The notes beneath the pieces were generated by a model. That model saw only the letters and a program-made list of their open reading frames with translations. It was not told the origin of the DNA and did no database searches. A program made the position numbers and the translations under genes. A stretch of DNA of 37,859 bases from a bacterium (GTDB lineage Bacteria; Elusimicrobiota; Elusimicrobia; Elusimicrobiales; UBA9959), in assembly GCA_021847485.1 (NCBI GenBank), contig JAJZRA010000012.1, positions 1 to 37,859 on the forward strand, given 5' to 3'. Shown here one piece after another: positions 6,948 to 30,553 of this stretch (within the stretch, counting starts at the first letter, position 1; every line of letters begins with the position of its first letter).

Positions 6948-6965
6948 GCTCACCAGGAGGAAACC

Positions 6966-7127: not shown

Positions 7128-7145
7128 TTCCGGACGCGACGCGTT

Positions 7146-7712: not shown

Positions 7713-7713
7713 T

Positions 7714-7722
7714 TGATATAGT
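7714..7722 (+). promoter_or_regulatory. extended -10 promoter giving a leaderless transcript
   Basis: TGA followed by TATAGT (7717-7722) is an extended -10 element. The ATG at 7729 follows after 6 bases, leaving no room for a ribosome binding site, so the transcript probably begins at the start codon. Confidence 0.5.
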
Positions 7723-7728
7723 TTGTTC

Positions 7729-7941
7729 ATGCCCGAGATCAGCGACTGGAAAGCCGCGGGAATGGCCCTGGCCGCGGCGGCCGCCTGCGGCGCCTACCTC
7801 TACCGCGCCATGGCGCGCCTGCAGGGCCGCGGGGAGGACGGGGACGGCGGCCAGCTGACGGATATCCTGGTCATCGCCGCGCTCGTGCTCTTCACCGTCT
7901 ACCAGCTCAAGCAGGCCTTCCTGCCGCTGATAGAAAACTGA
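7729..7941 (+). CDS. small two-span membrane protein, unknown function
   Basis: The 70-residue product has two hydrophobic segments, about residues 10-28 (AAGMALAAAAACGAYLY) and 47-66 (ILVIAALVLFTVY), separated by a short Gly/Asp-rich polar loop (RLQGRGEDGDGGQ). I do not recognise the family. The ATG at 7729 is favoured by the TATAGT box 6 bases upstream. Its start shares the CATG tetramer with a possible start of the divergent glycosylase gene. Its stop (7939-7941) abuts the stop of the convergent glycosyltransferase in the palindrome TGATCA. Confidence 0.65.
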   Translation: MPEISDWKAAGMALAAAAACGAYLYRAMARLQGRGEDGDGGQLTDILVIAALVLFTVYQLKQAFLPLIEN

Positions 7942-9660
7942 TCATTTCCCGGACGCCCGGTCGTAGAGGCAGTCGGCCTCGGCGTTGCGGCCCTCGCGGT
8001 CGAACATCGCGGCCAGCTTCTCCATCCCGTCCCTGTCCCCGGTAAGGTCATAGAGGAAGATCGAATAGCCCGCCGTGAAGACGGGACGCCTGGACTTCAG
8101 CCAGGCGAAGCTCCGCTTGTCCGGATAGTAGGTGCCCTGCAGGTTGGTGGCCGACACCGCCAGCAGCACGTCCTTGAGGCCGCAGACCTTCGCGCCGGTC
8201 CCGGTCAGCTCCACGTTGGACACGACGCCGAGCGGGACATAGCCGATGCCGTAGCTTTCCGGGCGGGCCACGCCGAAATAGGAGAAGACCACCGGCGGGT
8301 TGCCCCGGGACTTAAGGTAAGCCGCCAGCCCCTTCACGTCCTGCCCCCAGTCCAGGTTGGAGTCAACGAAGTACCGGTAGCCGCCGGCCGGCCCGCCGGC
8401 GAGCTCGTTGAAATAGGCCAGGAAGTGCGGCGCCGCGCGGAGCACGGAGGCGGCGTTCAGGGCCAGCAGGGCGCCGACCAGCCACGCGCCGCGGCGGGCC
8501 TCCAGCAGGCGCGCCAGCGCCAGGCCCGCCAGCGCGGCCAGGAAGGGCATGACGGGCATGATGTGGCGGTAGCCTATCTGCACCTTGGTATTGAGCGAAG
8601 CCGCGAAGTAGACGGCGGGCGGCAGCAGCAGCCACAGGTAGTCCTTGCGGAACCTCTTCACGGCCAGCCAGGCGCCGGCGAAGGCCGCGCCCAGCGCGAC
8701 GAGCGGGGTCTTGACCGCGAGCGCGGCCGGGAAATACCACCAGACCCCCTGCACGGTGTAGCTCCCCATGGCGAACGAGGAGCGGCCCTGGCCCAGGCGC
8801 TTGAGCGTCTCGGACAGGCCGGAGAAATAGAGCGGCAGGTCGAACTTGTAGATCAGCGCCACGGTCAGCAGACAGACCGCCAGGTAGAGCGCTATATAGC
8901 CCAGCAGCGCAGAAAGCTTGAGACGCGGCCAGCGCAGGTTGTCGGCTATCCAGAAAGCGGCCACCAGCGGAGGGACCACGAACATGCTGAACTTGGAGGC
9001 CATGGCCAGGCCCGCGGCGAGGCCCGCCGCCGCCGCCCGGAGCCTAAGCTCGCCGCCGGCCACGAAGAGCTGCTTCTTGCCGCCTTTGGCCGCCGCTTCC
9101 ACCGGGGCCGCGGCCGTGAACCGCCAGGCCAGGGCGAACGAGGCCAGGTAGAAGACGGCGGCGGCCGCGTCGGTGGTCACCAGCGCGTCGTTGGAGATGA
9201 AGACCGGCATCAGCGCGAAAACGGCCAGCGCCAGCCAGGCCGCGGCCGCCCCCTCCATGCGGGAGACGAAGGACCACAGCAGCCAGGCCAGCAGGGCCGT
9301 CCAGACCAGGAACGTGAAGACGCGGCCGGTGTCCAGCAGCTTCTCCGCCGGGACCGTGTTCTGGTAGAGGAACAAGTCGCCGTAATGATAAGGCAGCGCC
9401 CTTAAGAAATAAGGATGCCCCGAGAACGCGCTGGGCCGCAGGGCCAGCAGCGGCAGGGCCGACAGCATCTCCGAGAGCGGCGGATGGTCCATGATGTTCA
9501 TCGCGTAGCGGCCGGTGGCCAGGTAGGAGTAGCCGCTGGCCAGGTGGACCGTCTCGTCGTAGGTGGGCGCCGCCGAGCGGATGAAGGCGAGCCCCCCCAG
9601 CAGATGGAGGACCAGGGCCGCCAGGGCCAGGACGCGGGGAACTCGGTATCGGGTGTCCAT
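7942..9660 (-). CDS. family 39 glycosyltransferase (PMT-like integral membrane protein)
   Basis: The 572-residue protein is a polytopic inner-membrane glycosyltransferase of the GT-C/PMT_2 type that uses polyprenyl-phosphate sugars as donors. The first periplasmic loop has the APTYDETVHLASG motif with the Asp-Glu pair used for catalysis in this superfamily, followed by MDHPPLSEML. About ten or more hydrophobic segments follow, with RHIMPVMPFLAAL in the middle, and the C-terminal ~130 residues form a soluble domain. The acceptor cannot be read from sequence. I chose ATG 9660; a TATCAT (9676-9671) lies 10 bases upstream. An ATG at 9708 would add a poor 16-residue extension. Confidence 0.8.
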   Translation of the reverse strand: MDTRYRVPRVLALAALVLHLLGGLAFIRSAAPTYDETVHLASGYSYLATGRYAMNIMDHPPLSEMLSALPLLALRPSAFSGHPYFLRALPYHYGDLFLYQNTVPAEKLLDTGRVFTFLVWTALLAWLLWSFVSRMEGAAAAWLALAVFALMPVFISNDALVTTDAAAAVFYLASFALAWRFTAAAPVEAAAKGGKKQLFVAGGELRLRAAAAGLAAGLAMASKFSMFVVPPLVAAFWIADNLRWPRLKLSALLGYIALYLAVCLLTVALIYKFDLPLYFSGLSETLKRLGQGRSSFAMGSYTVQGVWWYFPAALAVKTPLVALGAAFAGAWLAVKRFRKDYLWLLLPPAVYFAASLNTKVQIGYRHIMPVMPFLAALAGLALARLLEARRGAWLVGALLALNAASVLRAAPHFLAYFNELAGGPAGGYRYFVDSNLDWGQDVKGLAAYLKSRGNPPVVFSYFGVARPESYGIGYVPLGVVSNVELTGTGAKVCGLKDVLLAVSATNLQGTYYPDKRSFAWLKSRRPVFTAGYSIFLYDLTGDRDGMEKLAAMFDREGRNAEADCLYDRASGK

Positions 9661-14634: not shown

Positions 14635-16083
14635 TCAGAACCGGTGCCAGAGCTGCTGCGTGGTCACGTCGTGGTGGAACACCACCTCGGAGGTCTTCAC
14701 GATCGTGCCGAGCTCCTTCGGGCTGCGGTCCGCGGCCGCCTGCTTGTGCGCCGCGTACTTCTCGTGCGGGAGCTCGCCCATCACGCGCCTGACGAACTCG
14801 CTGCCGCGGAAGATGCGGATCGCGTCGTAGATATTGCCGGGCAGGAACCGCACCCGGTCGCGCTTGCCCTCGTCCTTGGCGAGCGGCTTCCCGTAGAGCG
14901 CCGTGCTCAGCAGAGCGAAGAGGGCGAGGTACGGGTTCGCGTCGGGGGCCACCGACCGGATCTCCAGGCGGGCGGAGCGCTCGTTGCCCGCCGGGATGCG
15001 GATCATCGCGCCGCGGTCCACCGAGGAGACCTTGATCTGGTTGGGGGCCTCGAAATGCGGATCGAGGCGCCGGTAGGAGTTGACGCTGGGGTTCAGCACG
15101 AGCGAGAGCTCCTGCGCGTGGTTGAGGATGCGCGAGACCACGTCCCAGGCCGCCTTGGAGAGGCCGTCCTCGCCCTTGGCGTCGTGGAAGACGTTCTTGC
15201 CCCCTTTCGAGAACGAGAGGTTGAGGTGCATGCCGCTGCCGTTCACGCCGGAGACGGGCTTGGGCAGGAACGTGGCGGTCATGCCCATGTTGGCCGCCAC
15301 CTGCCGGCAGACCAGCTTATAGAGCTGGACCAGGTCGCAGGCGCGCACCACGTCGGCGTGGGAGAAGTTCAGCTCGAACTGGGACGGGGCGACCTCCGGG
15401 TGGTCCTTCTCGTTGCGGAACCCCATCGCGCGCTGCGCCTCGGCCGCCGTATCGATGAAGATCTTGAGCGGCGCCAGCGGCAGCGAGTGGAAGTAGCCGC
15501 CGCTCGAGATCAGCTCGAACCCGGTCCCCTCGTTGTAATGCTGCTCGGCGTTGAGCCCCTTCACCACGAAGCCCTCCACCTCGGCGGCGACGTTGGCGGT
15601 CAGGCCCCTGGCCCGTTTCATCTCCGAAGCCAGGGCCCGCAGGCGCGCCCGGAAATCCGACTCGTAGGGCGTGCGGTCGCGGTTGAGGACGGTGCCGAAC
15701 ATGATCACCTTGCCGGGGCCGAAGACGTCGGACGGCAGCCAGACGATGCTGCCCCAGTCCACCGCGAGGCGCAGGTCGGACTCTTTCTGGGCGGAGAAGC
15801 CGCGGATGGAGGAGCCGTCGAAGGTCAGGTTGTCGTTGGACTTCAGGAAGTACTGCTTGTCGTAGTCCAGCATGTGGAAGCGCCCCTCGATATCGGTGAA
15901 GCAGACCGTTACGGCCTTAAGGCGCTTCTCCTTCTCGAGGTAGCCGCAGTATTTCTTCTCCAGCTCGGCGGGCGTCAGCCTGGCGGCCGCCTCGGCGGCG
16001 TCCAGGTTCAGCGTTTCGAGCTCATCGTAGGGGATCTCCAGGAAGTTCTTCAGGGCGGGGACGGCGGCGGTCTCTTTGGCCAT
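14635..16083 (-). CDS. glnA: glutamine synthetase (type I family)
   Basis: GlnA makes glutamine from glutamate, ammonia and ATP. The 482-residue protein has the N-terminal beta-grasp region with FDGSSIRGFS, then catalytic-domain motifs: EVAPSQFELNF, NGSGMHLNLSF, NPSVNSYRRLDPHFEAPNQI, and RLEIRSVAPDANPYLA. The second position of the MHxH loop is Asn, as in Firmicutes-type enzymes. The adenylylation motif NLYxLPPEE is not present; the nearest stretch reads LPGNIYDAIRIF, so control by adenylylation is unlikely. An AGAGGA box and a good promoter lie upstream. It is monocistronic. The sequence is divergent enough that a GlnA-like gamma-glutamylating enzyme cannot be ruled out. Confidence 0.86.
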   Translation of the reverse strand: MAKETAAVPALKNFLEIPYDELETLNLDAAEAAARLTPAELEKKYCGYLEKEKRLKAVTVCFTDIEGRFHMLDYDKQYFLKSNDNLTFDGSSIRGFSAQKESDLRLAVDWGSIVWLPSDVFGPGKVIMFGTVLNRDRTPYESDFRARLRALASEMKRARGLTANVAAEVEGFVVKGLNAEQHYNEGTGFELISSGGYFHSLPLAPLKIFIDTAAEAQRAMGFRNEKDHPEVAPSQFELNFSHADVVRACDLVQLYKLVCRQVAANMGMTATFLPKPVSGVNGSGMHLNLSFSKGGKNVFHDAKGEDGLSKAAWDVVSRILNHAQELSLVLNPSVNSYRRLDPHFEAPNQIKVSSVDRGAMIRIPAGNERSARLEIRSVAPDANPYLALFALLSTALYGKPLAKDEGKRDRVRFLPGNIYDAIRIFRGSEFVRRVMGELPHEKYAAHKQAAADRSPKELGTIVKTSEVVFHHDVTTQQLWHRF

Positions 16084-16227: not shown

Positions 16228-18537
16228 TCAGGCGGTCTTCTTCAGCGCAGCCAGCACCTTCTCAGGAGTGAACGGAGCGTCGAACAGCCTGGCCCCGCAG
16301 GCGGCGTAGACGGCGTTCGCCACGGCGGGCAGCGGGCCGTTGATGCCGATCTCCGAGACCGACTTCGCCCCGAAGGGCCCGTTAGGTTCCCAGGTGGGCA
16401 CCAGGAAGGTCCTCACCGGCGGGGTATCCGCGGCGGAGAGGATCTTGTAGCGCCTGAACGAGGCGTTCAGCGGCGTGCCGTTGGCGGAGAACTCCATGGC
16501 CTCCGAGAGCGTGTGGCTGATGCCGTTGACCACCGCGCCGTCGTTCTGGCCCTCGGCCAGCTGCGGGTTGATGGCGGTGCCGCAGTCTATGCAGGAGACG
16601 TAGTCGAGGATGCGGATCTTCCCGGTCGCCGTGTCCACCTCCACCTCGGCGAAGTTGGCCTGGAAAGGCGGCGGCGACGTGTGGGCGTAGTGCGAGGCGG
16701 TGGCGGCTATCTGGTGCTGGTCGTAGTAGTACAGCGAGGTGTTGGCCACCTCGGACAACGAACAGGACGCCCCCTTCCGGGAGACCGCGCGGCCGCCCTC
16801 CAGGCGCAGGTCCTCTTTCTTCTCGTCGAGGATCTTGGCGGCCACCGCCAGGATCATGTCGCGCACCTTCTCGGCGGCCTTCTTGGCGGCGCCGCCGGAG
16901 ATGAACGTGGTGGAGGAGGCGTAGGCGCCGACGTCGAACGGGGTGACGTCGGTGTCGGAGGAGGTCACGATCATGTCCTCCGTCTTCACGCCGAGCACCT
17001 CGGCCGCGATCTGCGCGAGGATCGTGTCGGAGCCGGTGCCCAGGTCGGCCGCGCCGACGAGCAGGTTGAACGAGCCGTCCTCGTTCATCTTGATCGTGGC
17101 GGAGGCCATATCCACCTCGGGGATGCCGGAGCCCTGCATCATGCAGGCCACGCCGACGCCGCGGCGGACCGGGCCGGTCTGGCCGGCGTACTTGGCCCGC
17201 TTCTCGGCCCACTTGATCTCGTCCATGCCCTTCTGGATGGCCTCGAACAGGCCGGTGGACGTGATGACCTGCTCGACGCCCTCGCGGCCCTCGCCCATGG
17301 CCTTGAAGACCGGCGAGCCCTCGCCGAGCTTGATGTAGTTCAGCTTCCGGAACTCCACCGGGTCCATACCGATCTTATCGGCCATCATGTCCATCAGGCA
17401 TTCCCACGCGAAGAAGCCCTGCGTGGCGCCGTAGCCGCGGTAGGCGCCGGCCACCGGCATGTTGGTGTAGACGCTGCGGCCGACGAACTTGATATTGTTC
17501 TTGACCCGGTACATCGGGATCGTGTGCGAGCCGGAGCACATCATCACGGTCAGCGCGTGGCTGCCGTAGGCGCCGGTATTCAGCGTGATCTCCATCTCGG
17601 CGTCGGTGATCGTGCCGTCGTTCTTCACGCCGGCCTTCATGCGGCAGACCGCCGGATGGCGGGTGCGCGAGGAGATGAAGGTCTCCTTGCGGGTGTATTC
17701 CAGCTTGACCGGCCTGCCGGTCTTAAGGGCGAGCGCGGCCACGATGTCCTCGAGGACCTCCTGCTTGGAGCCGAAGCCGCCGCCGATGCGGGGCTTGACC
17801 ACCCGGATCTTCTTGACAGGTATCTTCAGGGCCTGCGCCACGATGCGGCGCACGTGGAACGGCACCTGCGTGGAGGTGCGCAGCACCAGGCGCCCGAAGT
17901 TGTCGAAGTGCGCTATCGAGACGTGGGGCTCTATCGCGCAGTGCTGCAGATAGGGGATGCTCCAGCTGTGCTCGAAGACGTGGTCTGCCTCCTTGAACCA
18001 TTCCCCGTTCTTCACCTCGAAGTCGAACTTGGCCGCGATGTTGCGCTTGGCGTCGGGGATGTTCTTGGAGTCGGGCTCGTCGTGGATGACCGGGGCCCCG
18101 TCCTTCATCGCGTCGAAGACTTCGAGCACGGCCGGCAGCACCTCGTAGTCCACCTTTATCTTGGAGACGGCCTCCCGGGCGGCCTCGAGGGTCTCGGCGG
18201 CCACGGCGGCCACCCTGTCGCCCACGTAGCGGACCTTGTTGTCGAGCGTGTAGGTGTCGTAGGGCGACGGCTCCGGGTAGCCCTGCCCGGCCGTAGTGTG
18301 CGGCACGCGGGGCAGGTCCTTCCAGGTGAGCACGGCCTTCACGCCGGGCACCTTCAGGGCCGCGGAGACGTCTATCTTCTTTATGCGGGCGTGGGCGTGG
18401 GGGCTCCAGAGCAGCTTGGCGTGCAGCAGCCCCTTGAACTCGACGTCGTCGGTAAAGGCCGGCTCGCCGCAGGCCAGGCCCAGGGCGTCCATCTTGCGGA
18501 CAGGTTTATTGACTACTTTGAGGTTCTTGGCGTCCAT
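16228..18537 (-). CDS. molybdenum hydroxylase large (molybdopterin) subunit, set 1
   Basis: The 769-residue protein is the molybdenum-cofactor subunit of a xanthine dehydrogenase-family enzyme. The N-terminal a/b hammerhead domain (about 1-125) is followed by the first cofactor domain with RIGGGFGSKQ, then GAYRGYGATQGFFAWE, and the second domain with AADLGTGSDT. Near the C-terminus NGPFGAKSVSEIG holds the presumed catalytic Glu729. It lacks the AYRCSFR loop of CO dehydrogenase. The family hydroxylates purines, aldehydes or aromatic heterocycles; the variant active-site loops prevent naming a substrate. It ends the 14-gene unit, after its own FAD and 2Fe-2S genes, and a terminator follows. No signal peptide, so it is cytoplasmic. 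Confidence 0.9.
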   Translation of the reverse strand: MDAKNLKVVNKPVRKMDALGLACGEPAFTDDVEFKGLLHAKLLWSPHAHARIKKIDVSAALKVPGVKAVLTWKDLPRVPHTTAGQGYPEPSPYDTYTLDNKVRYVGDRVAAVAAETLEAAREAVSKIKVDYEVLPAVLEVFDAMKDGAPVIHDEPDSKNIPDAKRNIAAKFDFEVKNGEWFKEADHVFEHSWSIPYLQHCAIEPHVSIAHFDNFGRLVLRTSTQVPFHVRRIVAQALKIPVKKIRVVKPRIGGGFGSKQEVLEDIVAALALKTGRPVKLEYTRKETFISSRTRHPAVCRMKAGVKNDGTITDAEMEITLNTGAYGSHALTVMMCSGSHTIPMYRVKNNIKFVGRSVYTNMPVAGAYRGYGATQGFFAWECLMDMMADKIGMDPVEFRKLNYIKLGEGSPVFKAMGEGREGVEQVITSTGLFEAIQKGMDEIKWAEKRAKYAGQTGPVRRGVGVACMMQGSGIPEVDMASATIKMNEDGSFNLLVGAADLGTGSDTILAQIAAEVLGVKTEDMIVTSSDTDVTPFDVGAYASSTTFISGGAAKKAAEKVRDMILAVAAKILDEKKEDLRLEGGRAVSRKGASCSLSEVANTSLYYYDQHQIAATASHYAHTSPPPFQANFAEVEVDTATGKIRILDYVSCIDCGTAINPQLAEGQNDGAVVNGISHTLSEAMEFSANGTPLNASFRRYKILSAADTPPVRTFLVPTWEPNGPFGAKSVSEIGINGPLPAVANAVYAACGARLFDAPFTPEKVLAALKKTA

Positions 18538-18558: not shown

Positions 18559-19074
18559 TCAGCCGCGCTTGCGCTTGCCGCCGGCGAGGCGGGCGGAGGC
18601 GTTCTTCACGGCCTCCACCTGCTTTACGTAGCCGGTGCAGCGGCACAGGTTGCCGTCCAGGGCCTTGCGGATCTCGGCCTCGGTCGGGCGCGGGGCCCGG
18701 TCGAGCAGGGCCTTGGAGGACAGGATCATGCCGGGGATGCAGAAGCCGCACTGCACGGCGCCGGCCTCCACGAAAGCCTCCTGCAGCGGGTGCGGGTCCC
18801 GCACGGTGCCGAGCCCCTCTATCGTGGTGAGCTCCCCCCCGTGCGCGGCCACGGCCGGCACCAGGCAGCCCAGCACGGCCCTGCCGTTCAGGATGACGGT
18901 GCAGGAGCCGCAGTCGCCGGTATCGCAGCCCTTCTTGGTGCCTTTCCAGCCGTGCCGGCGCAGCGCGTCCAGCAGGAACTCTCCGTTCTTCACGGACAGC
19001 TCTTTCAGCTCCCCGTTGACGGTCACGGTTATCTCGAAATTGCCTTTCTTGGTCTCAAGGATGTCTTTCTTCAT
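18559..19074 (-). CDS. molybdenum hydroxylase 2Fe-2S subunit, set 1
   Basis: The 171-residue small subunit passes electrons from molybdenum to FAD. The plant-ferredoxin-like domain has C50-x4-C55-x2-C58 and C70; the helical domain has C109-x2-C112 and C144-x-C146 in NLCRCTGY. All eight cluster ligands are present. The N-terminus carries about 12 extra residues and the C-terminus a basic tail (GGKRKRG). It starts 8 bases after the repaired end of the FAD gene and is followed by the large subunit after 21 bases. Confidence 0.95.
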   Translation of the reverse strand: MKKDILETKKGNFEITVTVNGELKELSVKNGEFLLDALRRHGWKGTKKGCDTGDCGSCTVILNGRAVLGCLVPAVAAHGGELTTIEGLGTVRDPHPLQEAFVEAGAVQCGFCIPGMILSSKALLDRAPRPTEAEIRKALDGNLCRCTGYVKQVEAVKNASARLAGGKRKRG

Positions 19075-19082
19075 GGTTCACC

Positions 19083-19890
19083 TCAGATAGCGGCCGCGAA
19101 GCGGGCGAGCAGGCTGGCCGACGCCGCGGAGACGTAGTCCCCGGCGCGCGCGGCGTCGAGGTCGGCCGCGAAGGCCCTGGCGGGGTCCTCGCCGGCCAGC
19201 AGGGCCTTCTCCGCCGCGGGGGGCGCGGAAGGGCCTGGGCGACAGCGCGCCCACGGCGACGCGGGCCCGCGAGAGCGCCTTGCCCCTGCGCTCGGCCGCG
19301 AAGAACAGCGTTACGTAGGATTCCCAGCTGGAGTCGGTCTTCGCGAGTTTCACGAACTCGCACTTCCACTTCTTCGTCGCCGCCGGGATCACGATCTCGG
19401 TGATCAGGCAGTTGGAGCCGGGGCGCAGCAGCGGGGCGGCGGCATAGAGCTCCTCCAGCCCGAGCAGCCTGGAGCCGCCCTTGGCCTGCACCCTGACCCT
19501 GGCGTCGAGGCCGAGCAGCACGACCGGGAAGATATTGAAGGAATGCGGCCTGGCGACGTTCCCTCCGATCGTGGCCATGTTGCGGATCAGCTGGCTGGAG
19601 CACTTGGCGGCGGCCGCCGAGACGATGCCGCCGGCCCAGCCGCGGCAGAGGCGGTCGCGGTCGATCTCGTCGAACGTGGCGCCGGCCCCGATCACGAGGT
19701 TCCCGCCCTGCAGCTTTATGCCCTTCAGCGGGAGGTCCTTCAGGTCCAGGTAGGTCTCGACGGAGTCCGGCAGCGTCTTGGCCACCAGCGTGCCGCCGGC
19801 GAGGGCCAGGGCCTTGTACTTCCGGTCGAGCAGCAGCGCGAGCGCGTCCTTCACCGAGGACGGGCGGGCGTAATACTTGATGTTCTTCAC
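19083..19890 (-). CDS. molybdenum hydroxylase FAD subunit, set 1, with a one-base frameshift
   Basis: The FAD-binding subunit passes electrons to the final acceptor. LAGGTLVAKTLPD and RNMATIGGNVARPHSFN are the two FAD-binding motifs. The start is a GTG at 19890 with AGGAGG 7 bases upstream. After about residue 222 the frame changes: read as given, the protein ends at 19078 in an Arg/Gly-rich tail unlike the family. Removing one base from the six-G run at 19218-19223 restores a normal C-terminal domain (FRAPAAEKALLAGEDPARAF, then a helix ending LLARFAAAI) with a stop at 19083, 268 residues in total. This may be a sequencing error, a recent mutation, or slippage. The rest of the gene looks intact. 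Confidence 0.85.
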
Positions 19891-19916: not shown

Positions 19917-19933
19917 GGCCCGCCGGGCGGGCC
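19917..19933. repeat. perfect GC hairpin between the TldE-like gene and set 1
   Basis: GGCCCGCC, a single G, and GGCGGGCC form an 8+1+8 inverted repeat that overlaps the end of the TldE-like stop codon. There is no T tract, so it is not a standard terminator. It sits in the largest gap (42 bases) of the long operon and could protect or cleave the mRNA. Confidence 0.55.
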
Positions 19934-21648
19934 TACTTAGCGAAATAGGGATGCGGCAGGTACGGCGGCCGGTCCGGCTTGGCTTCTGTCGGCTTCAGCT
20001 CCATCTCCTGCACCAGCAGCGCCTCGGGCGCCGCTATCGAGGCCGGCACGAGCCCGCGGTTATAGTAGAACGGCCCGGCCTGGTAATAGTTGTAGACCTG
20101 GTCCTTATCGGAGGCCAGCGTGATGTCGCGCAGCGCGCGGAAGGTGACGCCGGACCATTCCGAGGGGCCGAGCGGCGTCTCGGAGCCGTCTTTGACCGAG
20201 ACCTTGTAGGCTATGACCGGGTCGGAGAGCAGCTCGCCGTACTCCCTGGAGGTCTCCGGGTCCACGCGGCGCACCAGCACCGCGTAGTCCAGCCCGTTCT
20301 CCGCGGCCAGCTCCAGCAGCTTCTTCTTCAGCTCGGCCTCCGGCGCGCGCTTGGCCGGCAGGAAAGAAAAGAAGACGTTGCCGGGGCGGGGCGTCGGGAA
20401 CTCGGCGACCGAGCCGCGCGCGTGGCCGTTGGAGGCGCGGAACTCCTTGACGGGGGAGCGGTCCATGTAGAAGTTGACCAGCTTGCCGCCGCGGACCAGC
20501 TCCAGCGGCGCGGGGCGGACGCCCTCGTTGTCCACCGGGTAGCTGCCGGCGAGCGCCGTGCCGTCGTAGGAGTTTTTCAGCGGGTCGTCGGTCACGCCGA
20601 CGAAGGCCGGCAGCACGCGCATGCCCAGCTTCTTGGTCAGCTCGCCGGAGGCGATGTAATAGCGGGTCCAGTCGTCCTTGTCGGCCCACGGCGCGCGCGG
20701 GAAAGAGACGTTGGCCACGAACAGCTGGTTGAGGAACTCGGCCGCGGCCTGCCCCTCGAAGAGCACCGGCCCCAGGTAGACCTCGGCGGTGGAGGCGTCC
20801 ACCAGATAGCTCATCTCCCGGGCGAAGGCCTCCGTCCGGGCCGCGAGGTCCGCGTCGGAGGGGACCGCGGCGAGCGAAGGCCAGAGGAGGTCCTCGCTGT
20901 CCGAGATGCGCAGCCCGGTCCTGTCCTGCACGGTGGCGCGCACGCTCAGCGTGACGTCGTCCCAGCCGCGGCGGAACCGCGTGCCGCCGCTGTCGGCGAA
21001 ACGGGCGGTGCGCATAGCGAAGCCGAACGAGACCTGCGAGTCCTGGACGGCGGGGTATTTGCGGAAGACCGCCGACAGCGCCTTCACGCGCTCCCGCCAG
21101 GCCGGGGCGTCGAAGGCTTCGGACGGGCGGGCGTCGTCGAAGAGGCGCACGCGGGGCTCCGGCGAGAGGTCGCCGTAGATCTCGGAGATGTTCTTCTTGG
21201 TCCGGTAGGCCTTCTTCTGCGAATACTTCTCCAGGGCCTTCTTGTACGCGTCGTCGCTCAGCGACCAGAGGCCGAAGCGCAGCGCGTCGTAGCCGGCCTC
21301 CTCGCTCAGCTGGGACCCGGCCGGGGAATAGGAATTGAAGTCCTGCCCGACGTACCAGGTATTGTCGAACGCGGCGCTGCCGACGCGCACGTCGGCGGCC
21401 ACCCGGCGGGAGACGTCGGAAGAATCGTCCAGCAGCGAGCCGAAAGAGGCCGACAGCGAGGTCTCGGTGGAGTCCACCACGTAATAGGAAACGTAGTAGG
21501 GCCGGTCCAGGCTGTCCATCTTAAGCCGCCGGACCGTGCGGTCCAGTTCGTCGGTCATGGCCTTGAGGACGCGGTCCCCGGGCGCGGCGGCGCGCGCCGG
21601 GGCGAGGACGGCGAGGAGGCAGGCGGAGGCCAGCAGGAGGCGTTTCAT
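19933..21648 (-). CDS. secreted TldE/PmbA-like protein lacking the metal site
   Basis: The 571-residue protein begins with a signal peptide (MKRLLLASACLLAVLAPARA) and is otherwise a TldD/TldE-family protein. It shares the layout of the gene upstream, including the SPVKEFRASNGHARG stretch, equivalent to SPIRNFPESNGHGRR there. Where the active partner has HExxxH, this one reads GQAAAEFLNQLFV, so both His ligands are lost, and the C-terminal Cys ligand is also missing. In E. coli, TldD (active) and TldE (inactive) form a heterodimeric protease, so this is probably the non-catalytic subunit of an exported version. Its ATG follows the TldD-like stop after one base, so the two are probably made together. 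Confidence 0.85.
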   Translation of the reverse strand: MKRLLLASACLLAVLAPARAAAPGDRVLKAMTDELDRTVRRLKMDSLDRPYYVSYYVVDSTETSLSASFGSLLDDSSDVSRRVAADVRVGSAAFDNTWYVGQDFNSYSPAGSQLSEEAGYDALRFGLWSLSDDAYKKALEKYSQKKAYRTKKNISEIYGDLSPEPRVRLFDDARPSEAFDAPAWRERVKALSAVFRKYPAVQDSQVSFGFAMRTARFADSGGTRFRRGWDDVTLSVRATVQDRTGLRISDSEDLLWPSLAAVPSDADLAARTEAFAREMSYLVDASTAEVYLGPVLFEGQAAAEFLNQLFVANVSFPRAPWADKDDWTRYYIASGELTKKLGMRVLPAFVGVTDDPLKNSYDGTALAGSYPVDNEGVRPAPLELVRGGKLVNFYMDRSPVKEFRASNGHARGSVAEFPTPRPGNVFFSFLPAKRAPEAELKKKLLELAAENGLDYAVLVRRVDPETSREYGELLSDPVIAYKVSVKDGSETPLGPSEWSGVTFRALRDITLASDKDQVYNYYQAGPFYYNRGLVPASIAAPEALLVQEMELKPTEAKPDRPPYLPHPYFAK

Positions 21649-21649
21649 G

Positions 21650-23350
21650 TCAGTTCCCCCCTTTGCCGCCGTCCGTGAACGGAGGCTTCAGGACCGGCGG
21701 GCGGGCGTTGGATTTCTGGACCTTCTCGGATTCCATCTCCGAGAACAGCAGGCTCGGAGAGACGGCCGAGACCGGCACCCAGCCGGACTCGGCGCCGCAG
21801 GAGCCGTCGAAGACGGCCGGGTCGTCGCCGGTCTCCACGATGCGGGAGAAGGTCTGCAGCGGCGTGCCTATCAGGTTCAGCCCGCGCACCGCCTCGTCCG
21901 GGCGGCCGTCGGGGAAGACCTTGTAGGCCATCGTCGCCTGCACGGAAAAGCTCTGCGGCAGAGAACGCTCGGTGATCGTGAAGCCGCCGGAAATGTCGGT
22001 GACGATGAGGCCGTAGGGCTTCTTGTCCTTCTTAACCTCCTCTATCAGCCTCTCGCGCAGGGCCTTGTAGGGAACGGCCCGGCTCGAGACCACGATCAGG
22101 TTGCCCTGCCTGGCGACGGCGCCGTGCCCCTCGGAGCGGCGGCCGTGGCCGTTGGATTCCGGGAAATTGCGGATCGGGGACCGGCCCATCAGGAAGCCTT
22201 TCAGCACGCCGTTCTCCACCAGTACGGCCCGGCGGGCCGGGACGGCCTCGTCGTCGTAGCGGTAGTAGCCGCGCAGGAACTGGCCTTTCACGTCGTAGAG
22301 TGTCGGGTCGTCGTAGACGCTGAGGAAGGCGGGCATGATCTGCTGGCCCACCTTCTTGGCGAAGGTCTGGCCGGACTCCTCGCTCTTCTGCCGGTGGCCC
22401 TCCAGGCGGTGGCCGAGGATCTCGTGGAAGAAGACCGCGGCGGCGCGGTTCTGCAGGATGACCGGCCCGGAGTAGGGCTGCTCCGGAGGGGCCGCGCGCA
22501 GGGCCGCGAGCTCCGCGATGGAGGCGTCGATGTCCTTGGCGATCACGGCCTCGGCCGGCATGTCCGAGGGCTTGTCCGAATCGTAGATCTTCATGCGCGA
22601 CAGCTCCATGCCGTCGGCCGTGCGCGTGTAGAGGGAATAGATCAGGCGCACGTAGGTGTTGCCGGTGACTATGGAAGAGCCCTCGGAGTTGACCATGTAG
22701 CGGTTATTGGTCTCGACGCTGAAGCGCAGGTAGGAGTCGTAGATGAAATCGTATTTCTTGAAGCGTTCCGAGAGCCGGCGCAGCATGTTCCTGAAGGCGG
22801 CCTTGTCGAAGGCCGGGAAGGACGCCGGGCCGTAATAGACGCTGGCCGGCGACGCGGAGAAGTCGTCCGACTTATCCTCCTCCTCGGCGGTCACGCTCTT
22901 GTTCATCCTGACCTTGGCGTACCGGTCGAGGGCGGTCTTGTAGGCGCGGTCGGTCAGTCCCCAGATCTCCGCGCGCAGCGGGGCCGGATCGTCCTCCACC
23001 GGCAGGGAGGCCAGTTCCTGCTTCTTGGAGTTGGTGTAGGCGTAGTCGCCCTTGACCTCGTGGGTGTTGTCCAGCGCCGGAGAGCCGACGCGGGCGTCCA
23101 CGTCCAGCTGCCGGGCGCGGCGTGAATCCTCGCTGAAGACCGCGCCTTCGGAGGCCGAGACGCCGTAATAGCGCTTGTCGTAGACCTCGTAACCCAGGTA
23201 GTAGAGGGGCGCGGACTCGGCGTGGGCCAGCGTCGAGGTGGAGCGGGCGAGCTCCGCCTTCAGGGCGGCCAGCAGCGGGTCGCTCTGGGCGGCCTGCGCC
23301 GCGGCGGCGCAGGGGGACAGGAGCAGCGTGAGGGTAAGGATCTTCTTCAT
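21650..23350 (-). CDS. secreted TldD-like zinc metalloprotease
   Basis: The 566-residue protein has a signal peptide (MKKILTLTLLLSPCAAAAQA) and a TldD-type protease core. The HExxxH motif is intact (H309, E310, H314 in FFHEILGHRLEGHR), and C518 in DGSCGAESGWVPV matches the third zinc ligand of E. coli TldD. TldD/TldE proteases work in the cytoplasm in E. coli; here both members carry export signals. I chose ATG 23350, which begins the signal peptide and has a CGGAG box; an upstream GTG-type start would bury it. It follows the set 2 FAD gene by 17 bases. Its target is unknown. Confidence 0.88.
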   Translation of the reverse strand: MKKILTLTLLLSPCAAAAQAAQSDPLLAALKAELARSTSTLAHAESAPLYYLGYEVYDKRYYGVSASEGAVFSEDSRRARQLDVDARVGSPALDNTHEVKGDYAYTNSKKQELASLPVEDDPAPLRAEIWGLTDRAYKTALDRYAKVRMNKSVTAEEEDKSDDFSASPASVYYGPASFPAFDKAAFRNMLRRLSERFKKYDFIYDSYLRFSVETNNRYMVNSEGSSIVTGNTYVRLIYSLYTRTADGMELSRMKIYDSDKPSDMPAEAVIAKDIDASIAELAALRAAPPEQPYSGPVILQNRAAAVFFHEILGHRLEGHRQKSEESGQTFAKKVGQQIMPAFLSVYDDPTLYDVKGQFLRGYYRYDDEAVPARRAVLVENGVLKGFLMGRSPIRNFPESNGHGRRSEGHGAVARQGNLIVVSSRAVPYKALRERLIEEVKKDKKPYGLIVTDISGGFTITERSLPQSFSVQATMAYKVFPDGRPDEAVRGLNLIGTPLQTFSRIVETGDDPAVFDGSCGAESGWVPVSAVSPSLLFSEMESEKVQKSNARPPVLKPPFTDGGKGGN

Positions 23351-23367: not shown

Positions 23368-24210
23368 TCAGCGGGCCAGCGACAGGAGGGCCCGCTCCAG
23401 CAGGACGCCGCACATCTCGCGGCGGTACTCGGCCTCGCTGCGGGCGTCGGTTATCGGGGAGACCTCGGCCTTGACCCGGGCCGCGGCCTCCACGGCGGTG
23501 CCGGCGGAAAGAGGCCGGCCGGCCAGCCAGGCGGAGACGCCCGCGGCGTACAGCGGCACCGGCGCCACCGAGCCCAGCGCCACCGAGGCGCTCTTCACGG
23601 CTCCACGCTCCAGTTCGGCCGCCACGGCCACGGCGGCCTTGGAAATACCGAAATAGGAGCGCGGCCCCAGCTTCAGGTAGGCCCCGGCGTGCCGGCGTTT
23701 CGGGACTTCGAAAGCGGTGATCAGTTCGTCCCTGCGCAGCGCGGTACGCTTAGGGCCGGTGAAAAGGTCTTTCAGCGGCAGGCGGCGGCGCTTGCCCTTC
23801 AGTTCCAGGCGGACGAAAGCGCCCTCGGCCACCAGCGCGCAGACGCCGTCCGCGCAGGGGCTGGCGTTGCCGGCGTTGCCGCCCAGCGTGGCCATGTTGC
23901 GCAGGCTGGGGCTGGCGAAATGGGGTATGGCCGAAACGAGGACCGGGCACCAGCGCCTGACGGCGGCCGAGCGCTCGAGGCCCGAGATCTTCTCCCCCGC
24001 GCCTATCACCAGCGCGGCGGCGGTCTCCTCCACGCCCGCGAGTTCCGGCAGGTCGCTTATGTCCACCCAGCACTCGGACCGCTCGACCCCGGCGTTGTCC
24101 GCCGTGACGATGTCGGTGCCGCCCGCCAGGTAGCGGCGCGCGGCCGGCAGGCCCGGCAGGGTCTTCCAGAGCTCTTTCAGCGAGGCGGGCTTTACGATGA
24201 TGTCAGGCAT
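23368..24210 (-). CDS. molybdenum hydroxylase FAD subunit, set 2
   Basis: The 280-residue FAD subunit has YLAGGTDIVTADN and RNMATLGGNAGNASPCAD, the two FAD contacts, and an intact C-terminal domain (SVALGSVAPVPLYAAG, then ITDARSEAEYRREMCGVLL). This C-terminal ARSEAEYR segment is typical of xanthine dehydrogenase FAD subunits. Its start overlaps the 2Fe-2S gene by 8 bases, so the two are translationally coupled. It is clearly different from the set 1 FAD subunit, so the two sets are separate enzymes, not a recent duplication. Confidence 0.93.
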   Translation of the reverse strand: MPDIIVKPASLKELWKTLPGLPAARRYLAGGTDIVTADNAGVERSECWVDISDLPELAGVEETAAALVIGAGEKISGLERSAAVRRWCPVLVSAIPHFASPSLRNMATLGGNAGNASPCADGVCALVAEGAFVRLELKGKRRRLPLKDLFTGPKRTALRRDELITAFEVPKRRHAGAYLKLGPRSYFGISKAAVAVAAELERGAVKSASVALGSVAPVPLYAAGVSAWLAGRPLSAGTAVEAAARVKAEVSPITDARSEAEYRREMCGVLLERALLSLAR

Positions 24211-24679
24211 TTTTCTCGTCGCGGGCCTTCTCCACGGCCGACAGCACCTTCTCGTAGCCGGTGCAGCGGCACAGGTTGCCGGTAAGCTCCAGCTTGATGT
24301 CCTCCAGCGTGGCGCGCGGCTTGCGGCGCAGCAGGGCCTCCGAGGCCACTATGAGCCCGGGCGTGCAGAAACCGCACTGGACGGCGCCTTCGGCCATGAA
24401 CGTCTTCTGCAGCGGGTGGAGCCCGCCGGCCTTCCCCTTGATGCCCTCTATCGTCACGAGGTCCTTGCCGTGCAGCTGCACGGCCATCATCAGGCAGGAA
24501 TTTACGGCCTTCCCGTCCACCAGCACCATACAGGCCCCGCATTCCCCCTCGCCGCACCCTTCCTTGGTGCCTTTCAGGCCGAGGTCCTCGCGGATGAACT
24601 CAAGCAGAGAGCGGGAGGATACGACCTCCCGCTCCACTCGCTCTCCGTTGACGGTGCAGGCCAGACGGAAACTCTTCAT
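24203..24679 (-). CDS. molybdenum hydroxylase 2Fe-2S subunit, set 2
   Basis: This 158-residue subunit has all eight ligands: C42-x4-C47-x2-C50 and C62 in the ferredoxin domain, then C102-x2-C105 and C137-x-C139 in the helical domain (VQCGFCTPG, NLCRCTGY). It matches XdhC/CoxS-type small subunits closely. It starts one base after the stop of the CsgG-barrel gene, which separates it from its large subunit. Confidence 0.95.
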   Translation of the reverse strand: MKSFRLACTVNGERVEREVVSSRSLLEFIREDLGLKGTKEGCGEGECGACMVLVDGKAVNSCLMMAVQLHGKDLVTIEGIKGKAGGLHPLQKTFMAEGAVQCGFCTPGLIVASEALLRRKPRATLEDIKLELTGNLCRCTGYEKVLSAVEKARDEKNA

Positions 24680-24680
24680 G

Positions 24681-25874
24681 TCAGAACTTGCTGCCCACGC
24701 CGAGCACGAACCTGGAGCCGGTGAACGTGACGTTGTTGGTCACGCCGGCGTAGCCGCCGTTGAACGAGGTCGAGTTCATCTCGGCGCGCCATTCCAGGAA
24801 GAACGTGGTGCTGTCCATGTTGAAGCGGACGCCCACGGGGACCCTGAACATGAAGCCGACGGCGGTCTCGTTGAGCAGGGCGTTGCGGACGTCCCGCAGG
24901 ACCGAAGACTTGATGTTGTTGATCGACAGGCCGAGGCCGAGACCGAAGTAGAACTGGGCCTTGGTCATGGTCCTCAGCAGCAGGTCGCCGCTCATGCCGA
25001 CCGAGGTCACGTCCAGGTAGCCGGCGGGGATCACGGCGTTGTAAAGGATGGTGTTGTTCACCACGGTGCCGCGCTGGGAGTCTATGTAGTGCCTCGAGAC
25101 GGAGAACTCGAAGTCGCCGCCGAACGCGCCGTTGCCGTAGCCGCCGACGCGGAAGCCGATCGGGCCGGCGCCGCTGGTCAGCAGGCCGGTCTGCTTGATG
25201 TTGCTGCGGTAGGCGTCCCAGGTGATGTCGGTGGTCTGGGTGCCGGCGCCTGCGATCACGTCGAAATAACCGTATTCATTGGGGCCGCGCGCCCGGGCGG
25301 CCTGCTTTACCATGGGCTGCGAGGGCTGCTGGTAGGCCTGGGGTTCGGGCTGCTGGACCTGCTGCGCCTGCTGGGGAACGGCGTTATCGTCGCCGATCCA
25401 GTTCTTGTCCAGCGTGACCTGCGAGGCGCCTATGGCCTGCGCGGTCTCGGTCTTGATCAGGCGGGCGTTGACCTCTATCTGGCCGCCGGAGGTCTGCACC
25501 AGCGTGCCGGTGATTATGGCCTCGACGCCCAGCAGCTTGCCCAGCTGCTGGGTGGAGTTGGCGTCCATGATGCCGGAGGACTGCAGCTTCAGCTCGTTCA
25601 TCACCTTGTCCAGCGCGCTGCGCTCGATGACCTCGAACTTATGCATGTTGATCATCTTGACCGCGAGGCGCTCGGCGATGACCGAGCCGTCCTTGCTGGC
25701 CTTGTCCTTCGTGTCGGCGTAGGAGAACGGGATGATCGCTATCTTCTTGCCCTGCACCGAGGCGCCGGCCTCGGTCAGCTCGCGGGCGAGCTGGTCGTAC
25801 TTGTCCTCCGCGCGGGCCCCGGCGGCGAGCGCCAGCAGCAGCACGGCGAACAACGCTTTGGTCATGTTCTTCAT
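24681..25874 (-). CDS. CsgG/FlgO-like domain fused to an outer-membrane beta-barrel
   Basis: The 397-residue protein has a signal peptide (about 1-22) and a CsgG/FlgO-like domain at about 40-158 (KKIAIIPFSY, FEVIERSALDKVMNE, LGKLLGVEAIITGTL). A Gln/Pro-rich linker follows at about 165-190. From about residue 200 there are alternating strands with Gly and aromatic residues, ending in GVGSKF; a terminal Phe is the usual signal for barrel assembly. I infer an outer-membrane anchor with a periplasmic CsgG-like domain. I do not know this combination from a described system. It lies between the set 2 large subunit and 2Fe-2S genes with gaps of 11 and 1 bases, so it is co-transcribed with a cytoplasmic enzyme. 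Confidence 0.78.
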   Translation of the reverse strand: MKNMTKALFAVLLLALAAGARAEDKYDQLARELTEAGASVQGKKIAIIPFSYADTKDKASKDGSVIAERLAVKMINMHKFEVIERSALDKVMNELKLQSSGIMDANSTQQLGKLLGVEAIITGTLVQTSGGQIEVNARLIKTETAQAIGASQVTLDKNWIGDDNAVPQQAQQVQQPEPQAYQQPSQPMVKQAARARGPNEYGYFDVIAGAGTQTTDITWDAYRSNIKQTGLLTSGAGPIGFRVGGYGNGAFGGDFEFSVSRHYIDSQRGTVVNNTILYNAVIPAGYLDVTSVGMSGDLLLRTMTKAQFYFGLGLGLSINNIKSSVLRDVRNALLNETAVGFMFRVPVGVRFNMDSTTFFLEWRAEMNSTSFNGGYAGVTNNVTFTGSRFVLGVGSKF

Positions 25875-25885: not shown

Positions 25886-28186
25886 TTAACCCTTCCTGAT
25901 CTCTTTCCAGATCTTTTCCGGCAGCAGCGGCACGGACCGCACCCTGGCTCCGCAGGCGTTGCGGACCGCGTTGGCCACCGCCGGGGCCACCCCTATGAGC
26001 GGCACCTCGCCCATGCCCTTGGCCTTATAAGGGCCTTCGGCATAGGGCTTTTCTATGAAAGTTATATCATATTCGGGTTTATCTGCGGTAGTGGCGATGA
26101 CGTAATCGGTGAAGTTGGGGTTCACCATGATGCCGTTCTTGTAGACCAGGTTCTCGTAGACGGCCCAGCTCATGCCCTGCAGGATGCCCCCCTGCGCCTG
26201 GCCCATGGCCAGCCCGGGGTTGACGATCCTGCCCACGTCGTAGGCCGCCCAGACCTTGCGCACCTTCAGGACGCCGGTGCGCAGGTCCACGTCCACCTCG
26301 GCGGCGTCCGCGGAGTAGGAATAGATGACGTAGGCGTCGCCCTGGCCGTCCTCGTTCTTGAACGAGGTGCGCGGCGCCGTGTACCAGCCCTGCTCGCACA
26401 TCTTCAGGCGGCGGCTCCAGCAGCCGGAGACCACCTTCTTGAATTCCACCGACTTGGCCCCCATCCTGAAGACGCCGTTGGCCGCGACCATGGGCAGCGA
26501 GGCGTCAGCCCCCTCCGCGAGGAGCAGGTCGTAGGCGGTCTTGAAGATCCTCTCGCGCAGCGGCGTGGCGGCGTCGATGATGGCGTTGCCGCTCATCAGC
26601 GTGGTGCGGCTGGCCACGGTGGGGCCGGAATCCGGCACCTTGGAGGAGTCCACCTCCTCCACGCGGACGGCCGCGTAGGGCGCGTTGAGCGTCTCGGCGG
26701 CGATCTGCGCCAGCACGGTCAGCGCGCCCTGGCCCATTTCGGTATTGCCGACGCTGACCCCGACGGAGGAATCCTTGTAGATGTTCACCATCGCGCCGGC
26801 GCGGTCCAGGTAGCGGCCGCCCGCGCCCAGGCCCACGCCGTAATAAGCCACGGAGAAGCCGATGCCGGAGGCCACGTCCCCCTTTACGGAGGGGCTCTTC
26901 CATTTCCTGTCCCACCCGGAGCGCCGGCGCACGGCCTGCGCTATCTCCGCCAGGCCGCAGCTGGAATTGAGCTTCTGGCCGGTCACGGTCCTGTCGCCGG
27001 GCTTGAGCAGGTTCTTCAAGCGGAACTTCAGCGGGTCCATCCCGACCTTGGCGGCGAGCTCGTCGATGAGCGACTCCTGCGCGAAGCTGATCTGCGGCTG
27101 GCCGAAACCGCGGAACGCGCCGCAGGGCACCTTGTTGGTGGCCGCGGCGTAGGTCCGGATGTCGACGTTGGGGACCTTGTACGGGCCGGCGGCGTGCACG
27201 GTGCCGCGCCACAGCACTATCGGCGACAGCGTGGAATAGGCGCCGCCGTCCAGCACGTACTTGACGCGGCAGGCGGTGATGCGCCCGCTCTTGTCGGCGG
27301 CGTAGGCCACCCGGGCCCAGCCCGGATGGCGCTTGGACATGCTCTGGAAATCCTCTTTACGCCCGTAGATCAGCCTGACCGGGCGGCCGACCTTGGCCGC
27401 GCAGATGGCGGCGTGCGAGGCGACGAGCGCCGGCACGTCCTCCTTGCCGCCGAAGCCGCCGCCGGTGACCGTCTGCAGGATCTTGATCTTGTGGTAGGGC
27501 TGGGCCAGCGCGGCGGCCACGGCGTCGATCACGTAGAACGGGCACTGCGTGGTGCTGTGCACCGTCATGCCGCCGCCGGGCTCCGGCACGGCTATCGCGC
27601 CCTGGGTCTCGAGGTAGGCGTGCACCTGGTAATTGGTGCTGAACTCCCCCTCGACGGTATAGGCGGCCTTCCTGAAAGCCTCGTCCACGGAGCCGTTCTT
27701 TATCCGGTAGGTGGAGAAGACGTTGTCCTCGCCGTGCACCCTGGGCGCGCCCTTCTCGAGCGCCTCCAGCGGGTCCTCCACGAAGGGCAGCTCCTTGTAG
27801 CGCAGCTCGACGAGCGCGGCGGCCCTGCGGGCGGCCTTCTCGGACGCGGCTACGACCAGAGCGACGGTCTCGCCGGCGAAGCGGGCCTCCTTCTCCGGCA
27901 GGAACGGGTAGTCCTGCATGACGACGGGCCATTTATTGACGCCCTTGATGTCCTTGTAAGTGACCAGCGCCGCGTAGCCCGGCACCTTGCGGGCCTTAGC
28001 GTCGGAGATGCCGTCTATCCGGATATGGGGCCTCGGCGAGCGCACCGCGGCGGCGTAGAGCATCCCGGCGAAGTCCCGGTCCGCGGCGTACCGCGCGGAA
28101 CCGACGGCCTTGATCTCGGCGTCCTTCCTGGGCATAGACTTCCCGACGTAAGAGAGCTTTTCCATGGTCTTCCCGGTCCTTTTCAT
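25886..28186 (-). CDS. molybdenum hydroxylase large (molybdopterin) subunit, set 2
   Basis: The 766-residue large subunit looks like a canonical xanthine dehydrogenase-family member: GGGFGGKED, GAFRGFGQPQISFAQE, GNTEMGQGALT and the catalytic KGMGEVPLIG with presumed base Glu727. The FRGFG loop is nearly the one of true xanthine dehydrogenases, making a purine substrate plausible but not certain; 4-hydroxybenzoyl-CoA reductase-like enzymes share parts of this pattern. The ATG at 28186 overlaps the XdhC stop. A second ATG at 28165 begins MEKLSYVGKSMPRKDA, the usual family start, and has an AGGA-like box, so it may be the true start. Assembly needs XdhC, encoded just upstream. Confidence 0.92.
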   Translation of the reverse strand: MKRTGKTMEKLSYVGKSMPRKDAEIKAVGSARYAADRDFAGMLYAAAVRSPRPHIRIDGISDAKARKVPGYAALVTYKDIKGVNKWPVVMQDYPFLPEKEARFAGETVALVVAASEKAARRAAALVELRYKELPFVEDPLEALEKGAPRVHGEDNVFSTYRIKNGSVDEAFRKAAYTVEGEFSTNYQVHAYLETQGAIAVPEPGGGMTVHSTTQCPFYVIDAVAAALAQPYHKIKILQTVTGGGFGGKEDVPALVASHAAICAAKVGRPVRLIYGRKEDFQSMSKRHPGWARVAYAADKSGRITACRVKYVLDGGAYSTLSPIVLWRGTVHAAGPYKVPNVDIRTYAAATNKVPCGAFRGFGQPQISFAQESLIDELAAKVGMDPLKFRLKNLLKPGDRTVTGQKLNSSCGLAEIAQAVRRRSGWDRKWKSPSVKGDVASGIGFSVAYYGVGLGAGGRYLDRAGAMVNIYKDSSVGVSVGNTEMGQGALTVLAQIAAETLNAPYAAVRVEEVDSSKVPDSGPTVASRTTLMSGNAIIDAATPLRERIFKTAYDLLLAEGADASLPMVAANGVFRMGAKSVEFKKVVSGCWSRRLKMCEQGWYTAPRTSFKNEDGQGDAYVIYSYSADAAEVDVDLRTGVLKVRKVWAAYDVGRIVNPGLAMGQAQGGILQGMSWAVYENLVYKNGIMVNPNFTDYVIATTADKPEYDITFIEKPYAEGPYKAKGMGEVPLIGVAPAVANAVRNACGARVRSVPLLPEKIWKEIRKG

Positions 28187-28993: not shown

Positions 28994-28999
28994 ATTTTA
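28994..28999 (-). promoter_or_regulatory. possible internal -10 box before xdhC
   Basis: TAAAAT on the minus strand lies 7 bases before the xdhC ATG and overlaps the end of the cyclase gene. There is no good -35. It could give a leaderless transcript inside the long operon. Confidence 0.25.
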
Positions 29000-30553
29000 C
29001 CTTAATTTCACGGGAGCCAGCTTAAAGAGCTCCAACGGCTCGGCCTTGCCCTTGAGCGGGACCCGCCCGAGAGGCTCGAAGGAGAAGGCCCCTCCGAGCG
29101 ACCCGCGCGCCCGCGCGGCCGCCGCCCCGCTGATCACCACGTCCGTGCCGAAATCCTTAGTTTTGGCCTCGAGGCGCGCGGCCACGTTGACCGTATCGCC
29201 GATGAAGGTGTACTCGAGGCGGGAGTAGGTGCCGATATTGCCCGCCACCAGCCGCCCGGAATGGATCCCCACCCCGAACTCCACCGGGAACGGCGCCGCG
29301 CCGGAGGCGTTGAATTCCGCCAGCGCGGCCCGCATGGCCGCGGCCGAGCGCACGGCGTCGGCGGCGTAGTCCGAGGAGCCGAGCTGCGGGGCGTAGACCG
29401 CCATGACCGCGTCGCCGATGAACTTGTTGATCACGCCGTTGTGGGCCGTGATCGCCGGCGCGATATAGCCGAAATAGGCGTTGAGGAACTCCACCAGGGC
29501 CGCGGCGTCCAGCTTCTCGCTGAGCGGCGTGAAGTTGCGGATATCGCAGAACATCACGGCGGCCTCGATGTCCTCGCCGCCCAGGTTGACCTTCTTGTTC
29601 TTGAGCAGTTCGCGGGCGATCTCGATAGACATGTACTTGCCGAAGGTGTCCTGCAGTTCCTCGCGCTCCTTCAGGCCGTCGACCATCTCGTTGAAGCCGG
29701 CCTTGAGATGCGCGATCTCGTCGGAGAAGAAGATATGGGTCTTCACGAACTCGCCGCCCGCCACGCGGCGCATCTTGCCGATGAGGCCGTTCAAGGGCAC
29801 CTGGATGCCGTTGTAGACCGTGGAGACCCCGGTCAGCAGCAGCACGCCGCAGAGGAACAGCATGAGGCCGAAATCCCCGGCGAAAGCCTCCCACGGAACG
29901 CGCTTAACGAAGAGCGTGTAGATCAGGACGAACGGGATGACGGCGAAGCCGATCACGAGCGAGGAGATCTTCAGGTAGATCGGGATGGAGAAGCCCGGCC
30001 GCAGGCGGGACAGCTCCTCCGGGGAATAGAGCGTCACGATAAGTTTCTTCTGCCTGGAGAGATGGGAATCGATGTGCGCGACGAGGAGCGCGGCCTGGCC
30101 CGCGAACGCCACGCCCGACGCCGCCCAGGCCTGCCACGGCAGCGCGCCGAACAGCAGCACCGGGAAGCCCAGCGCCAGCGCCTGCGATATTACCAGCATC
30201 AGGAAAGCGTCGCGGTAGATGTTGCCCAGCCGCACGCGGATCCTGGCCTTCAGCTTCTCGTCGGGCTTACGGACATAGCTGTAGGCCGGCCGCGCCCAGA
30301 GATAGACCATCAGGACCATCGCGAGGAACGGCAGGCCGATGTTCAGGCCCTGGTGCCTGGGCCCCATCTGGACGTTCAGCGGTCCGCCGCCCATGTCCGG
30401 ATCGCCGGCCAGGGCGACCATGGTCACGCGGTAGAACGAGGAATAGATGAAGCCGAGGAACAGCGGGATGTACAGGAGGTTGAAGAACTCCTTCAGCTGC
30501 CGCTTCCGCTCCGCCGTTTCAGGATCGCCGAACAGTACGATATCGTCTTTCAT
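28997..30553 (-). CDS. membrane-bound class III adenylyl cyclase
   Basis: The 518-residue protein has about six hydrophobic segments in residues 25-250, a HAMP-like linker (about 250-300, LNGLIGKMRRVAGGEF), the FGKYMS joint, and a class III cyclase domain (about 325-510). Both metal aspartates are present (D337 in FCDIRNFTPL, D381 in NKFIGDAVMAVY). K377 is the adenine-selecting Lys, and N456 and R460 in DTVNVAARLE are the transition-state residues. cAMP production is therefore expected. Its start at ATG 30553 has a GAGGTG box and overlaps the permease stop. It lies inside the nucleobase operon, ten bases before xdhC. The ligand of the membrane part is unknown. Confidence 0.92.
   Translation of the reverse strand: MKDDIVLFGDPETAERKRQLKEFFNLLYIPLFLGFIYSSFYRVTMVALAGDPDMGGGPLNVQMGPRHQGLNIGLPFLAMVLMVYLWARPAYSYVRKPDEKLKARIRVRLGNIYRDAFLMLVISQALALGFPVLLFGALPWQAWAASGVAFAGQAALLVAHIDSHLSRQKKLIVTLYSPEELSRLRPGFSIPIYLKISSLVIGFAVIPFVLIYTLFVKRVPWEAFAGDFGLMLFLCGVLLLTGVSTVYNGIQVPLNGLIGKMRRVAGGEFVKTHIFFSDEIAHLKAGFNEMVDGLKEREELQDTFGKYMSIEIARELLKNKKVNLGGEDIEAAVMFCDIRNFTPLSEKLDAAALVEFLNAYFGYIAPAITAHNGVINKFIGDAVMAVYAPQLGSSDYAADAVRSAAAMRAALAEFNASGAAPFPVEFGVGIHSGRLVAGNIGTYSRLEYTFIGDTVNVAARLEAKTKDFGTDVVISGAAAARARGSLGGAFSFEPLGRVPLKGKAEPLELFKLAPVKLR

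Follow-up and report, generated by a model that had tools for sequence, protein, structure and literature searches.

TldD and TldE have been studied in Escherichia coli as a microcin-processing protease whose cutting site is hidden inside a two-protein shell. The metal ligands of E. coli TldD are His262, His267 and Cys454, none of which is conserved in TldE, and Lys456 of TldD tethers the clamp via Glu270 and Asp272 (PMC5810440). Known TldD/E enzymes remove leader peptides and are often encoded outside the gene cluster that they serve (PMC5810440, PMC10885120). This report concerns a TldD/TldE-like pair with predicted export signals on both proteins, encoded between two sets of molybdenum hydroxylase genes in a bacterium of the order Elusimicrobiales. 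The stretch of DNA analysed, called the window, comprises 37,859 nucleotides (contig JAJZRA010000012.1) and belongs to a metagenome-type assembly of 2.2 Mb in 122 contigs that is 83% complete (GCA_021847485.1).

Gene pair and metal site

The exported TldD-like metallopeptidase (D, 566 aa), the predicted catalytic subunit, is encoded at 21650..23350 on the minus strand, and the exported TldE-like partner (E, 571 aa) at 19933..21648 on the same strand. These coordinates confirm the originally reported spacing of a single base between the two genes. D carries the motif HEILGH at residues 309-314, starting at H309, and a remote cysteine, C518, that aligns with Cys454 of E. coli TldD. Among the aligned exported D proteins, H309, E310 and H314 are each found in 86 of 86, and C518 in all 85 whose sequence extends to that position. 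The zinc site read from the window (H309, E310, H314 and C518 in one protein) is right and is invariant in homologues.

The corresponding residues of the window E protein are N307, Q308, A312 and Q523. Because the positions aligned with the D metal site vary among exported E proteins, the catalytic Glu, both His and the Cys have all been lost in E; the original prediction had correctly noted the missing His and Cys, and the Glu is gone as well. Scans of the operon for promoters and terminators return nothing above chance.

Export signals

Both window proteins begin with a Sec-type N-terminus, MKKILTLTLLLSPCAAAAQA in D and MKRLLLASACLLAVLAPARA in E, in which a positively charged end is followed by a hydrophobic stretch. 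The signal peptide of D would cover about residues 1-21 (MKKILTLTLLLSPCAAAAQAA; 23288..23350, minus strand), with cleavage placed by eye near AQA, and that of E about residues 1-20 (21589..21648, minus strand), with the cleavage site again judged by eye. An N-terminus is counted as signal-like if it contains, ahead of the domain, a 10-residue stretch with a mean hydropathy of at least 2.0. This threshold is reached by 83 of 86 D proteins and 83 of 85 E proteins, as against 3% of mature-chain segments, and the value for the window's own D is 1.97. In the same order, canonical TldD proteins begin directly at the domain and have no signal.

The hydropathy counts bear out the signal peptides initially assigned to both genes, and export of the two proteins is a strong prediction from their sequences, with the periplasm as the predicted location. 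Two other routes were considered and rejected: Tat export, since the twin-arginine motif is absent from both window N-termini, and lipoprotein anchoring, since Cys14 of D and Cys10 of E lie, by eye, outside any normal lipobox.

Fold

AlphaFold2 models of D and E, based on 30 and 28 aligned homologues, have mean pLDDT values of 86.9 and 89.8, respectively. The D model matches E. coli TldD (5njf) with a Z score of 32.0 over 446 aligned residues (3.4 A, 20% identity), and the E model gives a Z score of 27.0 to E. coli TldD (440+ residues) and about 25 to TldE/PmbA. The remaining TldD/E/PmbA structures in the PDB search score between 23 and 31 against the models. Actin-capping-protein matches at a Z score of about 5, the first unrelated rows of that search, were taken as background. 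The C-terminal domain PF19289 is above the Pfam cut-off in both window proteins. PF01523 has no Pfam match at E<=1; the D model nonetheless aligns with TldD from residue 18, and the N-terminal domain is covered by both models. The models support a TldD/E fold over the whole mature chain of each protein. As in E. coli TldD/TldE, the two chains would form a heterodimer.

A distinct exported subfamily

The exported proteins differ from the canonical TldD proteins of the order at the residues that tether the clamp. The position of Lys456 (520 in D) is Ala or Ser in 85 of 85 exported D proteins and Lys in 28 of 28 canonical ones. At the position of Asp272 (319 in D), the residue is His in 69, Gln in 7, Glu in 7 and Leu in 2 of 86 exported D proteins, and all 28 canonical proteins have Asp. 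With neither tether residue conserved in exported D, the cleft may behave differently. E. coli TldD has an acidic-plug insertion (residues 216-220) that is missing from the profile of the exported subfamily; this profile has an acidic loop of its own at 156-164 (EEEDKSDDF in the window).

The window genome also encodes a canonical TldD/TldE pair on another contig (G000, C45; locus L001, 307-1752 and 1765-3093, minus strand). Its two genes likewise lie side by side and encode one active and one inactive chain; they differ from the exported pair in having no signal peptides, a recognisable PF01523 domain and the clamp Lys and Asp. The exported TldD/E proteins are thus a distinct subfamily, a variant of the known TldD/E type, of which no description was found in the open-licence PubMed Central literature.

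Distribution and inheritance

One homologue search recovered 34 loci; they belong to Elusimicrobia, Planctomycetota, Melainabacteria and Aminicenantes, apart from a few in unplaced bacteria. Under strict cut-offs, the pair is present in 86 of 199 sampled genomes of the window's phylum, in 30 of 199 from the phylum of the Aminicenantes locus and in 16 of 199 from the phylum of a Planctomycetaceae locus. Among plasmid records, the matches were all distant and partial and belonged to the canonical type. In about 85 homologous pairs, spread over Elusimicrobiota, Planctomycetota, Melainabacteria and Acidobacteriota, both the signals and the division into an active and an inactive chain are kept. 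The original remark that an exported version is unusual stands in part: export is predicted, but the exported subfamily occurs in several phyla.

Within the order, the exported pair is near-universal: 55 of 59 genomes have it in the window's own family (f1), as do 51 of the 52 sampled in the sister family (f2). The canonical pair is present in 44 of 46 f1 genomes versus 0 of 45 f2 genomes, which are roughly 1.4 Mb in size, so that f2 shows no TldD/E other than the exported pair. Three f1 genomes (G211, G222 and G225) have a second copy of the exported pair, for which contamination of 3-5% could account.

D adjoins E in nearly all loci, across several phyla. The D and E trees agree on their main splits, with a distance correlation of 0.93 that kinship alone would also raise. 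These observations support inheritance of D and E together as a pair. Two genomes of another lineage, f4 (G103 and G053; loci L113 and L114), encode an exported D and no recognisable E anywhere in the genome; here D is possibly a homodimer or has a very divergent partner.

Genomic context and the molybdenum enzymes

All genes of the two molybdenum hydroxylase sets lie on the minus strand, as does the pair. The first set begins with the Mo-cofactor-binding subunit (25886..28186), followed by an exported protein resembling CsgG/FlgO/LpoB in its N-terminal part (24681..25874), the 2Fe-2S subunit (24203..24679) and the FAD subunit (23368..24210), which is the upstream neighbour of the pair and not a part of it. 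The second set consists of FAD (19078..19890), 2Fe-2S (18559..19074) and Mo-cofactor-binding (16228..18537) subunits. Its FAD gene is frameshifted near 19183-19238: homology to the corresponding gene of locus L033 runs to 19183 and resumes at 19238-19086 in another frame, as either an assembly error or a broken gene would produce. Adjoining this set is a glutamine-synthetase-like gene (14635-16083, minus strand) whose matches to NCBIfam families all score under the curated cut-offs and which could encode a gamma-glutamyl ligase. An adenylate/guanylate cyclase with a weak HAMP match (28997-30550, minus strand) belongs to the same gene cluster and is conserved in relatives. At another locus (L127 of genome G045), about 5 kb (about 4107-9246 as printed) separate the Fe-S gene from the FAD gene of the first set, with content other than TldDE.

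The original prediction held that something in the envelope is processed as part of the molybdenum pathway, and this is not borne out. All 46 sampled f1 genomes have PF02738, the Mo-cofactor-binding domain, versus 2 of 45 in f2, and 42 of the 44 f2 genomes with the exported pair have no gene with this domain. The pair thus occurs in 42 genomes of the sister family that lack a molybdenum hydroxylase. Even in f1, a count by eye places the pair beside a molybdenum hydroxylase in about 22 of 45 genomes and elsewhere in about 19, a few being ambiguous from short contigs. Nine f1 genomes have a complete molybdenum cluster in which the first FAD gene is followed directly by the second with no pair at the seam, and each of these genomes has the pair at another place. 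None of the window's molybdenum genes is found near the pair at the loci of other phyla. Membership of the molybdenum pathway is rejected as a general explanation, and the position between the two hydroxylase sets is a lineage-specific operon arrangement.

A narrower version, in which the pair is dedicated to the molybdenum hydroxylase pathway and processes an exported product of the cluster such as the upstream CsgG/FlgO-like protein, is quite unlikely. It would account for the retention of the position between the FAD genes across several f1 genera and in one f2 genome (G135), for the grouping of 16 of 17 linked rows with two free rows in one clade of the D tree (support 100), and for the signal peptide of the CsgG-like protein. 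It fits poorly with the 42 genomes that have the pair and no hydroxylase, and with the nine clusters whose genomes keep the pair elsewhere. The CsgG-like gene stays in the molybdenum cluster in many relatives and is missing in others; it is present in five of the nine clusters that lack the pair and absent beside the linked pair of G135, for which reason its product was rejected as an obligate partner. Moreover, the Fe-S subunits of both sets have no export signal, so the molybdenum enzymes look cytoplasmic and differ in predicted compartment from the pair.

The conserved linkage in several f1 genera and one f2 genome leaves room for some modest link in function there. Free pairs of f1, even from the same genus, sit in a part of the D tree other than the Mo-linked clade. 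The tree needs three changes to explain the linked arrangement, but a single clade that includes G135 is compatible with the AU test (p 0.30), and the linkage may have arisen once or more than once. The G135 locus (L087), on a long tree branch, is the only one from the f2 genomes examined with the pair inside a molybdenum cluster, and represents either an independent insertion or a transfer.

Other lineages have other neighbours. At eight loci of a class-level group, f7 (L115-L118, L120, L121, L123 and L124), the pair lies downstream of an O-antigen-ligase-like gene (PF04932) with TPRs, and glycosyltransferases are nearby. In one f2 genus (g11) the genes flanking the pair are on the opposite strand, and at three free loci of genus g1 the gene after the pair reads, by eye, like a polysaccharide deacetylase. 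Such differences in context between lineages fit a free-standing two-gene unit.

Proposed function and alternatives

With a probability of roughly two in three, the pair is a Sec-exported envelope metalloprotease of the TldD/E type that disposes of or trims unstructured peptides in general and takes no part in molybdenum metabolism. In the proposed mechanism, the TldD-like chain would bind zinc or iron through His309, His314 and Cys518, with Glu310 acting as general base, and the catalytically dead TldE-like chain would partner D and close the chamber. If the pair works as the E. coli enzyme does, the N-terminal ends of unfolded peptides would thread into this closed chamber and be cut almost regardless of sequence. 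The pair's most probable task would be the clearing or trimming of unstructured envelope peptides, most likely in the periplasm. The peptidase analogy is drawn because both fold and metal site match those of the E. coli enzyme, and on that analogy proteolytic activity and a housekeeping role are the probable properties of the exported pair.

A bolder extension of this proposal appears unlikely as a whole. In it, the undescribed exported subfamily, with its rebuilt clamp, would be the chief periplasmic metallopeptidase of the chambered type in Elusimicrobiales and in parts of other phyla, and in one family it would have been recruited beside molybdenum hydroxylases to clear the envelope peptides to which the activity of these enzymes gives rise.

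It is very unlikely that the pair instead matures one specific secreted peptide, such as a RiPP-like product or an envelope precursor, in the way that TldD/E acts on microcin B17 in the E. coli cytoplasm. Leader-peptide removal by known TldD/E enzymes, often unlinked to the cluster served (PMC5810440, PMC10885120), is compatible with such a role; however, no neighbouring gene is conserved with the pair across phyla, and a pair that is near-universal in the order, usually in one copy per genome, is better explained by housekeeping. An exported amide hydrolase of another kind, for example an N-deacetylase acting on envelope glycans, is highly improbable. The title of a review cited in PMC10885120 names TldD/TldE N-deacetylases, and the O-antigen-ligase-like gene before the pair in f7 and the deacetylase-like gene (named by eye) after it at the three free g1 loci point the same way, but glycan neighbours are limited to those clades and the full metal site and fold match a peptidase. 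Finally, the suggestion that the hydrophobic N-termini are wrong starts or anchors of an ordinary cytoplasmic pair, which draws on the selection of start codons by rule, is barely credible, since signal-like N-termini persist (83/86 and 83/85) despite divergence of the mature chains to about 30-45% identity, and canonical pairs start at the domain.

The general-disposal reading makes the exported pair a concrete candidate for the clearing of peptide fragments in the cell envelope. For this pair, gene position beside molybdenum enzymes proved misleading.

Comparison with known systems

The closest described system is E. coli TldD/TldE (PmbA) of MEROPS family M103 (5NJ5 and related; PMC5810440), which has the same fold, an HExxxH motif and remote Cys in the D chain only, and an inactive partner. 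The window pair differs from it in being exported, as predicted, and in that PF01523 is undetected by Pfam. Thermotoga maritima TM0727 (1VL4), Pseudomonas aeruginosa PmbA (3QTD) and Bacteroides thetaiotaomicron BT3649 (1VPB) also share the fold, with Z scores of 24-29 against both models, at a low identity of 12-20% to the window proteins. The occurrence of the exported form in several phyla, and its retention where the canonical form is missing, suggest that the architecture known from these enzymes also serves the envelope.
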